In this document: in pieces, positions 9,323 to 12,563 of the stretch
How the letters are laid out: the number at the start of each line of letters is the position of its first letter
How positions within the stretch are numbered: the first letter of the stretch is position 1
Source: Nitrosopumilus sp. Nsub
GTDB lineage: Archaea > Thermoproteota > Nitrososphaeria > Nitrososphaerales > Nitrosopumilaceae
Length of the DNA: 37,534 nucleotides
Direction of reading: 5' to 3'
Assembly (NCBI RefSeq): GCF_001541925.1
Contig: NZ_LQMW01000016.1
Location: 1 to 37,534 of the forward strand
The notes under the pieces: generated by a model
The model's input: the letters and a program-made list of their open reading frames with translations, nothing else
Database searches by the model: none
What the model was told of the DNA's origin: nothing
Program-made: the position numbers and the translations under genes

Positions 9323-9661
9323 GTGAGTTGGTTTGATGAATTATCAGATGAGCGCAAACATATCAACCCCCCCCCCCAGATAACACTTGATGAAAGTAAT
9401 TTCACAATATCAGTAGATCCTCAAAATTACCAAAAGAAAATATGCGTTAAAAAGGATCTTCACAGTGATTCAGCAAAAGATCTGATTTTTCAGATTTTAA
9501 ATAATGATACATGTGTGAGAAAAATGCATGGAATTCTAGCAAAACTGCAAGAGGAAAATAAAATAAGAAATGATCATACTAGAAATCAAATAATAAAGGC
9601 ATTAGAGGGTATAATGAAAAGTCAAATTTCCTTTGATCCAAATTTAATCAAAAAAATGTAA
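9323..9661 (+). CDS. Small protein of unknown function with a C11 tract near its start
   Basis: A 112-residue soluble protein starting at GTG 9323 (MSWFDELSDERKHIN), with Pro-Pro-Pro at residues 16-18 encoded by an eleven-C run, then a mixed beta/helical body. I do not recognise the family. It lies divergent to the chemoreceptor and upstream of a receiver gene, the same position as 743-1060 in the first module, but the two proteins do not look homologous. A one-base change in the C run would shift the frame after residue 18 and abolish the protein, so expression may switch. Confidence 0.75.
   Translation: MSWFDELSDERKHINPPPQITLDESNFTISVDPQNYQKKICVKKDLHSDSAKDLIFQILNNDTCVRKMHGILAKLQEENKIRNDHTRNQIIKALEGIMKSQISFDPNLIKKM
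9367..9377 (+). repeat. C11 homopolymer inside the 5' coding region
   Basis: Eleven consecutive C in a very AT-poor-for-C context, followed by AGATAA. A second C11 followed by AGATAA lies at 12519-12529 in the histidine kinase gene. Mononucleotide runs of this length are slippage-prone. Confidence 0.95.
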
Positions 9662-9923
9662 ATTCTCATCAACAAATATGATATAGATGTAAATTTACTG
9701 TGAATCAGATTAAAGGGTTATATTTTAAAGCGATCTATATTGAGGTAAAATTATCGTAAAGGTATGTATATTTTGAATTAGTGCAATGTTTGTAATTTTC
9801 TTCCCACATGATTTACTTTGTAGAATCATTTAATACACAATATTTTTTATATTTCCCCCACCGAGTGTAATTTATGAATTTGTACACATTACCATTTGTA
9901 GATATTTCAGGTTTTGATCGACT

Positions 9924-10382
9924 TTGAAGATACTAATTGCAGAAGACGAGCCAGAAATTTTACAACAGTACAAGTTGGTACTTGAGCATAAAGGTCATAC
10001 AGTAAAAACAACAGAGGACGGTCAATCATGTATTGATGAATATGACAAAGATTCACAATACGATTGTGTCATACTGGATTTTAAAATGCCTAAAAAAACA
10101 GGTATCGAAGTAGCACAACATATTTTTGAAAAGAATACAAATCAGAGAGTAATCATGGCATCAGCATACGTTAACCATTCAATTGAACAACAGTTAAGTG
10201 AATTGGGAAAAGTCACTGAAATACTCATAAAACCTTTTAAAATTAATTACATGTTAAAGATGCTTGAAAGTGCAGATCATGTAGAGTTTGCAGCAGAAAT
10301 TAATTCAAGTAAAGACAATACGAATGAAAAAGTAGCAAAGTATGAATCATTTTTGAATACCCACATGCGGCAATTAGAATAA
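9924..10382 (+). CDS. CheY-like response regulator, paired with the histidine kinase
   Basis: A 152-residue protein with a receiver domain at 1-115: E7/D8 acidic pocket, phospho-acceptor D52 (VILDFKMP), Ser80 and Lys103 (IKPF). The start is TTG at 9924, giving MKILIAEDE as in the paralogue at 1061. A 35-residue helical tail follows, with no DNA-binding domain. It precedes the histidine kinase by 3 bp, so this is very likely the cognate pair. The 262 bases upstream (9662-9923) are AT-rich and probably contain the promoter; I found no ORF in them. Confidence 0.93.
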   Translation: MKILIAEDEPEILQQYKLVLEHKGHTVKTTEDGQSCIDEYDKDSQYDCVILDFKMPKKTGIEVAQHIFEKNTNQRVIMASAYVNHSIEQQLSELGKVTEILIKPFKINYMLKMLESADHVEFAAEINSSKDNTNEKVAKYESFLNTHMRQLE

Positions 10383-10385
10383 CTC

Positions 10386-12563
10386 ATGTCAATTACAGTA
10401 TCTAAAAAAATTCTTTTAGCAATAATGATAACTACAATAACAGTTGTAGTTACTGCAAGCATCATAACCTACACCATATATGAAGAAGAAATTCTAAAAC
10501 ATCAGATAGAAAAATTAGAAAATACTGCATTAACACGTGGGAACTCATTGGATATCTTAACTAGTTTTAGAATACAGCAAGGAGAAACGTTATCAAGGAT
10601 GTCTGAGATACATGAGGTGTTAAAAAGTTATAGTGATGAGAAAGTTTCTAGTTCAGAACAAGCAAGAAATGAATTATTAATTGGAGAATTAAAAGAAAAA
10701 ATAGTTAACAATAAAATTCTAATCCCTACAAAGATAACAGGGTCTGCACAGTATCATGAATTTGAGATAATTGATAAAAGTGGCGTAATAGTGTATTCAG
10801 ACAATCCTGATAACTTTGTAAAAACAGTTGATACTACAATATTTGCCAATCCAAGTATGACGTATGGCTACGACTCAGATAAAAACAGGGCAATGATCAT
10901 ATCTCATCCAATACGAGATCATGGCAAACATTCAGAAATTATAGGATATCTCAAGTCTACAATGGGAACAACTACCACTGATTCTATTTTACTAAATAGA
11001 GAAAAATTAGGCAAGAGTAGTGAGACATACCTTGTAGATTTTAACAAGAAAATGATATCTGAATCAAGGTTCATCAAAGATGCACCATTTAAAATCACAT
11101 CAGATACTAAAGCAGTAAACCACTGCATTAACACAGGGCAGTCAATGACAGGTGAATATCTTGATTATAGAGGAATACCAATTTTTGGCTCATCGTACTG
11201 TGCAAATGAATATGGTTGGGTATTACTAGTCGAGATTGATTCATCAGAACTAAGAAAGCCATTAGAAGATATACAAAAACAAATGGCAATAATTGCCATA
11301 GTTACAACAATTATCGCAATTATAATAGGTGTCACAGTATCACGTTCAATTACAAAACCAATCAACTCCCTTCGAGACAAAGTCATTAGATTTGGTGCAT
11401 CATCATCATCATCATCATCATCATCATCATCATATACTGGACAAAGCGAGATTGAAATTTTAGACAAAGAGTTTGAAAACATGAAACAGTCAGTAGTCGA
11501 ATCAACTGAAGACATGAAGACATTTAAGCAAATTTTAGACAAAGCTGCCCTCGTATCTCAAACCGACCTAAAGGGCAACATTACGTACGCCAATGAAGAG
11601 TTTTGCAAGATATCAGGGTATAGTAAAGAAGAGTTAATTGGGAAAAATCATAGAATATTAAAGTCAGGCAAGCATGATGAAATATTTTACCGCACCATTT
11701 GGGAGACTATTACTAAAGGAAAAGTCTGGGAGGGCAACATTTGCAACAAATCCAAAGACGGTTCACTTTACTGGGTTCACAGTATCATCTCACCTAACAA
11801 AGCAGCAAACAATGACGGATACACCAGTATTAGAATAAACATTACAAAACAAGTTGAATTTGAGCAAAATCAAGCAGACTTTATCCACATGGCAAGTCAC
11901 GAGTTACGAACACCGATTCAGCCGTTGTTAAATCTGGCAGATATGCACGAAATAGGAATTATAGATTCAAAAGAGATGAGTGAAAAGATTCGCATCAATG
12001 CAGAACGCTTGCAAGAAATCACTGAAGACATGCTTGAAATTAGTAGAATAGAGGCAGGTGCTGCCAAATACACATGGGGGGAGATGGATGTGAAAAAATC
12101 AATAAATAACATTGTTGCAAAGTATTCCTCTAAATTATCAGAGGATACAAAAATTATTACAAACATTGATGAGATAACAATTACGGCAGATCGTCTCAAA
12201 GTGGAGCAGATAATTGAGAATGTTTTAGGTAATGCCGTAAAATTTACTGCTCAAGGTCAGATTGAGATTACCGCAAAAAAAGATGATGGTGAATGCACCA
12301 TTACAATATCAGACTCTGGAACTGGAATTGACAAGGAGATATTATCAAAGTTATTTACAAAATTTGCAACAAAGGCTGCACCAAATTCAGAACAAAAGGG
12401 AACAGGACTTGGACTGTACTTGTCTCGAGAATATGCAAGAGGACACGGAGGAGACATTGTAGGGAAAAATAATGCAAATGGTGCAGGCGCTACATTTACA
12501 ATCACATTATTAATTTCACCCCCCCCCCCAGATAATTCAAAAGAGTACAGCTCAAAACTTTGA
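10386..12563 (+). CDS. Membrane sensor histidine kinase (extracellular sensor, HAMP, PAS, HisKA, HATPase)
   Basis: A 725-residue kinase. TM1 is at about 9-30; an extracellular region at 31-298, probably Cache-like, carries VIDxSG-type strands; TM2 is at 299-318; the HAMP begins with SRSITKPINSLRDKV. A run of eleven Ser (339-349) and a coil lead into a PAS domain (about 382-490; [11 protein letters not shown] is close to the chemoreceptor PAS). The HisKA H-box is HMASHELRTP with phospho-acceptor His505. The ATPase has N-box ENVLGNAVKF (611-620), G1 DSGTGID (643-649) and G2 GTGLGL (672-677). The last 15 residues follow a Pro4 stretch encoded by C11. The output is probably the receiver at 9924. 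Confidence 0.95.
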   Translation: MSITVSKKILLAIMITTITVVVTASIITYTIYEEEILKHQIEKLENTALTRGNSLDILTSFRIQQGETLSRMSEIHEVLKSYSDEKVSSSEQARNELLIGELKEKIVNNKILIPTKITGSAQYHEFEIIDKSGVIVYSDNPDNFVKTVDTTIFANPSMTYGYDSDKNRAMIISHPIRDHGKHSEIIGYLKSTMGTTTTDSILLNREKLGKSSETYLVDFNKKMISESRFIKDAPFKITSDTKAVNHCINTGQSMTGEYLDYRGIPIFGSSYCANEYGWVLLVEIDSSELRKPLEDIQKQMAIIAIVTTIIAIIIGVTVSRSITKPINSLRDKVIRFGASSSSSSSSSSSYTGQSEIEILDKEFENMKQSVVESTEDMKTFKQILDKAALVSQTDLKGNITYANEEFCKISGYSKEELIGKNHRILKSGKHDEIFYRTIWETITKGKVWEGNICNKSKDGSLYWVHSIISPNKAANNDGYTSIRINITKQVEFEQNQADFIHMASHELRTPIQPLLNLADMHEIGIIDSKEMSEKIRINAERLQEITEDMLEISRIEAGAAKYTWGEMDVKKSINNIVAKYSSKLSEDTKIITNIDEITITADRLKVEQIIENVLGNAVKFTAQGQIEITAKKDDGECTITISDSGTGIDKEILSKLFTKFATKAAPNSEQKGTGLGLYLSREYARGHGGDIVGKNNANGAGATFTITLLISPPPPDNSKEYSSKL
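11400..11432 (+). repeat. (TCA)11 microsatellite encoding Ser11 in the kinase linker
   Basis: Eleven exact TCA codons encode Ser339-349, between HAMP and PAS. Pure single-codon use indicates expansion by slippage rather than selection for Ser alone. Each gain or loss changes the linker by one residue without breaking the frame. Confidence 0.95.
12519..12529 (+). repeat. C11 homopolymer near the 3' end of the kinase gene
   Basis: Encodes part of SPPPPDNS at residues 711-718, downstream of the catalytic ATPase motifs. Slippage would only replace the last dozen residues. It is followed by AGATAA, as is the C11 at 9367. Confidence 0.95.

Follow-up and report, generated by a model that had tools for sequence, protein, structure and literature searches.

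Can a run of a single base switch a signalling gene on and off in an ammonia-oxidizing archaeon? The question is raised by a cluster of signalling genes in Nitrosopumilus sp. Nsub, for which a preliminary description proposed possible phase variation on account of two runs of eleven cytosines (C11). We examined these tracts in the window (the whole stretch of DNA that was analysed, 37,534 nt long and with a C content of 15.5%), in the 1.38-Mb Nsub assembly and in related genomes.

Two long cytosine tracts in a signalling cluster

The features of the cluster, with positions in the window, are as follows.
8106..9146, minus strand: PAS and methyl-accepting chemotaxis (MCP) signalling protein (PF00015, E 2.2e-37; PF13426), the divergent neighbour of the 112-aa gene
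9323..9661, plus strand: orphan ORF of 112 aa with a GTG start and tract 1 near its 5' end
9336..9338, plus strand: alternative ATG start, in frame with the gene body at C9 or C12 according to in-silico translation
9367..9377, plus strand: tract 1 (C11), spanning the last base of codon 15, codons 16–18 and the first base of codon 19 of the 112-aa ORF
9378..9383, plus strand: AGATAA after tract 1, read as AGA TAA, an immediate stop, in one of the three phases
9924..10382, plus strand: response-regulator receiver protein (PF00072, E 2.3e-20)
10386..12563, plus strand: histidine kinase of 725 aa with PAS, HisKA and HATPase_c domains (PF13426, PF00512 and PF02518, above curated cut-offs)
11398..11433, plus strand: (CAT)12 / (TCA)11 repeat, encoding 11 serines in the linker before the kinase PAS domain
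12519..12529, plus strand: tract 2 (C11), three codons past the end of the HATPase_c match in the kinase, its length setting which of three C-terminal tails is read
12530..12535, plus strand: AGATAA after tract 2

The numbers of C runs in the window fall off geometrically from length 1 to length 5, there are none of the lengths between, and then come the two runs of 11. None of 100 dinucleotide shuffles of the window contained a C11 run, and the geometric expectation for such a run is ~7e-5 per window. The preliminary description, which had called the tracts striking in DNA so rich in AT, gave their coordinates correctly, and by these two measures both are far longer than chance would allow, one of the marks of a slipped-strand (simple-sequence repeat, SSR) phase-variable locus. 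In the whole Nsub assembly, runs of at least nine cytosines number only four, namely tracts 1 and 2, a C12 run between tfb and sufC, and a C18 run on contig C1. The C18 run was left out as an archaeal tract, since the DNA around it is sponge-like: the stretch of ~17.5 kb has ~40% GC, contains CA/TG repeats, is poor in long ORFs and resembles sponge DNA that has been fused to an archaeal glnA-like gene. Sponge-like eukaryotic and archaeal sequence thus appear to be combined there in one chimeric contig (C1:1-17500, L069), which hints at a sponge sample as the origin of the archaeon. That two of the three archaeal runs lie no more than 3.2 kb apart has a chance probability of ~1.4% (p ~0.014, post hoc). 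Nearly all of the other tracts of C≥9 that were inspected in AT-rich loci of the genus sit outside long open frames.

Profile matches recognise the receiver, the kinase and the divergent PAS–MCP protein of the cluster in which both tracts lie. The receiver and kinase genes have the composition of a two-component system, with HisKA and HATPase_c in one protein and the receiver domain in its neighbour, all recognised at curated cut-offs; to the left of the PAS–MCP gene lie CheW, a KaiC/GvpD-like ATPase and other genes. The HATPase_c match covers kinase residues 602–708 and tract 2 is followed by only 10 residues (DNSKEYSSKL), in agreement with the earlier statement that slippage in the kinase touches only about the last dozen residues. 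The predicted effect of a change in tract 2 length is a choice among three tails behind the prolines, all of them beyond the ATPase domain. The (TCA)n repeat in the same kinase, which is variable in length, was absent from the preliminary description. Small proteins of 92–105 aa are also encoded near the signalling genes (window 743-1060, 2653-2931 and 4344-4658); two of these look alike by eye, with LCNIF and GTGADF motifs, and one has a weak match to Nitrosopumilus output domain 5.

Tract length and the reading frames of the small gene

Searches of Pfam and NCBIfam gave no match for the 112-aa protein, and its structure prediction was uninformative (pLDDT 44). The run does occupy codons 16–18, as had been reported, and also takes one base each of codons 15 and 19. 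The products expected for each tract length were obtained by in-silico translation. With C8, C11 or C14, the full protein is read from the GTG at 9323 (112 aa at C11, in an intact frame). With C9 or C12, the GTG product ends after 21–22 codons and the ATG at 9336 reads the gene body, giving a predicted protein of 107–108 aa with a different N-terminus. With C10 or C13, neither start yields a product. Changes in length are thus predicted to alter the reading frame at both tracts, through the frame classes of tract 1 and the tails of tract 2. The claim that slippage turns the small gene off holds at C10 and C13, where both products are lost, but not at lengths divisible by three, where the alternative ATG opens, so that only one of the three length classes abolishes both.

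A homologue of the 112-aa gene was found in a single other genome, the Nitrosopumilus MAG SuakinDeep_MAG45_8 (G040) from the Red Sea, which was assembled from HiSeq (Illumina) reads with metaSPAdes (PMC8319295). This was the sole case among 95 genomes of the genus, 250 of the family and 400 of the class: the 250 family genomes otherwise gave only weak, chance-like hits, judged as open frames, and a class-level profile search of the 400 genomes gave none. Among the 95 genus genomes, G040 was likewise the only one with a full match through the end of the kinase. An IMG/VR match to the flank of tract 2 (L127) was discarded as an unrelated phage contig.

Tract 1 is C9 in G040 as opposed to C11 in Nsub; the next 60 bases are identical, the preceding bases nearly so, and no other run of C≥8 occurs in the G040 genome. 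Tract 2 in G040 consists of a T followed by C5, giving the tail ISSPR and then a stop, and the serine run in the kinase linker has 15 residues as opposed to 11, so that all three simple repeats of the cluster vary in length between the two genomes. At tract 1, then, length varies between related genomes while the flanks are conserved, in a comparison of two consensus assemblies with one tract length each. G040 also carries an extra kinase gene between the receiver and the 112-aa gene. The hexamer AGATAA trails both C11 tracts in Nsub, as had been pointed out, and in one phase of both the 112-aa gene and the kinase it provides an immediate stop (AGA TAA). Its presence behind both tracts is suggestive but not strong, since the hexamer is frequent in the window (48 copies on the plus strand and 11 on the minus strand). 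A common origin of the two tracts by way of AGATAA was considered and rejected: wider similarity was not apparent, the hexamer is frequent, and in G040 it is present as well, already standing behind the short C5 run of tract 2.

The body of the 112-aa gene is open in both genomes, and 3' of tract 1 its dN/dS is 0.27, a value from nine changes only, five of which are nonsynonymous. Upstream of the tract there are two substitutions, both synonymous in the GTG frame, one of which falls inside the ATG frame and is nonsynonymous there. The codon score of the gene is modest, with 12% of wrong-frame controls scoring equal or higher. Both the codon score and the substitution pattern favour the GTG frame over that of the ATG at 9336. 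Selection probably acts on the GTG frame, with G040 in an altered phase, a reading that rests on very few changes.

The genome also offers a setting in which such tracts may escape repair. A search that recovered MutS from Haloferax and Methanosarcina gave no match to the MutS family (MutS_V) in the Nsub genome. The genome does have a match to the NucS family. Mycobacterial NucS ignores indels of 1–2 nt and has been linked to homopolymer variation in those bacteria (PMC11551767). If, by analogy, archaeal NucS behaves in the same way, unstable tracts are to be expected in this organism.

In our view the best reading of tract 1, with about an even chance of being correct, is a contingency-type switch of the slipped-strand (simple-sequence) kind. 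Slippage during replication would add or drop C residues, and tract length modulo three would determine whether the cell makes the GTG-start protein, possibly the ATG form with its other N-terminus, or neither. Within one population, some cells would then make the small protein beside the regulator–kinase pair and others not, or make it in another form. The scheme supposes that both starts can be used, that the small protein may be linked to the kinase, and that the changes would be reversible within the population and might be of benefit. Tract 2 and the serine repeat would slip by the same process; the changes in these two are probably fine-tuning or neutral because only the tail of the kinase or the length of its linker would be altered. 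Of the possible phase variation first proposed, what stands is that the tracts are exceptional, that tract 1 shows a frame-shifting difference of C11 vs C9 in near-identical sequence and that no MutS family match was found, whereas the change in tract 2 alters only a C-terminal tail.

Neutral slippage and other explanations

The main rival of the contingency switch, a serious one to which we assign a somewhat less than even probability, is neutral slippage in an orphan gene that is dispensable and was acquired recently by transfer. According to this explanation, the runs have passed the slippage threshold, repair of indels is weak, and length changes are tolerated because neither the small gene nor the kinase tail is important, so that there is no selected switch. 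The history of the cluster speaks for it. Nsub and G040 are ~95% identical in the regulator–kinase stretch and 92% identical in the stretch containing the 112-aa gene, as opposed to a background of 84% at tfb–sufC and 78% at acs; in view of this low background we no longer regard G040 as a sister species. The cluster has therefore probably been exchanged between lineages, unless the 9.5-kb G040 contig is mis-binned; the difference between C11 and C9 stands in either case. In three relatives (G003, G017 and G089), similarity to the window starts only at ~12898, which shows the signalling region to be variable; G003 has a fen1-like gene immediately ahead of the PAS gene. On these alignments the cluster is a patchily distributed island, a point that the preliminary description missed. 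Patchiness and probable transfer, the orphan status of the 112-aa gene and the placement of tract 2 where length hardly matters are all in line with neutral slippage.

The island covers window 1-12898 and includes CheW, MCP, two receivers, the kinase and the KaiC/GvpD-like ATPase, which were not found beside the PAS gene in G003, G017 and G089. An MCP stretch is duplicated in it with 90% identity (window 1-301 and 8741-9041). The Nsub contig begins inside one copy, and the end of the G040 contig likewise consists of MCP sequence; both assemblies are therefore probably interrupted by repeats of this kind. Four tandem repeats were seen in the window: a perfect 21-bp repeat present 4.3 times (7474-7564), a 15-bp unit from which a methyltransferase-like protein gets its KAKTT tail (25640-25786), a perfect 14-bp repeat present 9.3 times (36615-36744) and a 153-bp unit with collagen-like, GP-rich coding potential (37131-37418).

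Further support for neutral slippage comes from the third archaeal run, the C12 in the conserved tfb–sufC spacer (C2:59717-59728; L070, L072). Just 3' of the tfb stop and before the T-rich TTTTCATTTTATT, poly-C ranges from C5 to C13, with a mode of C10, in the 24 loci of the genus that were measured, and is possibly part of a transcription end signal. Such variation supports slippage as a process, yet it warns that long variable poly-C can persist with no coding role; length variation alone is therefore no proof of selection. Against the neutral explanation stand the two long runs inside one 3.2-kb cluster, with the post hoc probability given above, the gene body that is open in both genomes at the dN/dS noted, the 5'-terminal position of tract 1 in the gene, at which frameshifts have their greatest effect, and the lack of any other run of C≥8 in G040.

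The conserved poly-C behind tfb could also be taken to favour programmed frameshifting, transcriptional slippage or a poly-C RNA element, by which several products would be made per template and DNA length would not be a switch. Frames are open on both sides of the run in two of three phases, and a stop supplied by AGATAA follows closely on the run in one phase of each gene, both of which would fit, but tract length differs between Nsub and G040 where a programmed site would usually need a constant length, and we consider such an explanation improbable. About as improbable is an origin of the tract lengths in faulty sequencing or assembly. Although homopolymers are error-prone and the draft Nsub assembly includes one or more chimeric contigs, two independent assemblies show long C runs at the same place, that of G040 from Illumina data, tract 2 differs by five bases plus a substitution, and the GTG frame is intact at C11, so the consensus length is coherent.

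Related systems and significance

A contingency switch at tract 1 would have several known counterparts. The lic genes of Haemophilus influenzae have several start codons upstream of the repeat, each in its own frame, and repeat length chooses the start, which allows more than two states. Those are tetranucleotide repeats in surface-sugar genes, and both starts are known to be used, whereas here the use of the ATG is predicted in silico.

Another is bvgS of Bordetella pertussis, a sensor kinase gene with homopolymeric-tract phase variation, in which C6 and C7 alleles occur within strains and mixed cultures (PMC1891110). Both cases involve poly-C in a two-component signalling gene, and a one-base change in bvgS truncates the product; there the tract lies in the kinase itself, whereas here the frame-breaking tract lies in a small neighbouring gene and is known from two assemblies. 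The hsdR1 gene of Helicobacter pylori has a 15-nt poly-C tract that was tested with phase-locked alleles (PMC10810217). As in our case, poly-C codes for prolines (TPPPPQ in hsdR1, NPPPQ here) and the frame switches by slipped-strand mispairing, which is here proposed; unlike tract 1, the longer tract belongs to a restriction gene of a bacterial host. For tract 2 there is a parallel in mga of group A Streptococcus, where, as described in a review (PMC11868660), a polycytidine tract changes from 8C to 7C with a measured effect on regulator output. Poly-C slippage in a regulator gene leads to protein length polymorphism in mga, as it may do at tract 2, where the kinase tail would be altered. Homopolymeric tracts have been proposed as a frameshift inactivation system in prokaryotes in a survey that included 18 archaeal genomes (PMC2831843); unlike tract 1, the over-represented 5'-placed tracts of that survey are short poly-A/T, and its poly-C/G tracts are not 5'-placed.

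High-rate and reversible switching in a clonal population are the twin defining traits of phase variation, which, in its repeat-based form, has been documented almost exclusively in bacteria, its archaeal distribution being open ground (PMC11868660). We found no report of phase variation for ammonia-oxidizing archaea in the open-access literature, consistent with the earlier remark that contingency loci are rarely reported for them. The mechanism is of a known kind, and the novelty lies in the host, the NucS setting and the two-start arrangement. As a whole, the following picture is tentative: a working homopolymer contingency locus in an ammonia-oxidizing archaeon, in which poly-C would go unrepaired as NucS stands in for MutS, and would toggle a small signalling partner among an OFF state and two forms with different N-termini; the locus would be carried on a chemotaxis/two-component island that moves horizontally and is common to a probably sponge-associated and a brine-interface Nitrosopumilus. 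If confirmed in Nitrosopumilus, such a locus would show globally important nitrifiers to be capable of hedging via heritable switching of signalling genes, and it would open to testing the question whether reliance on NucS generally makes an organism permissive for homopolymer switching.
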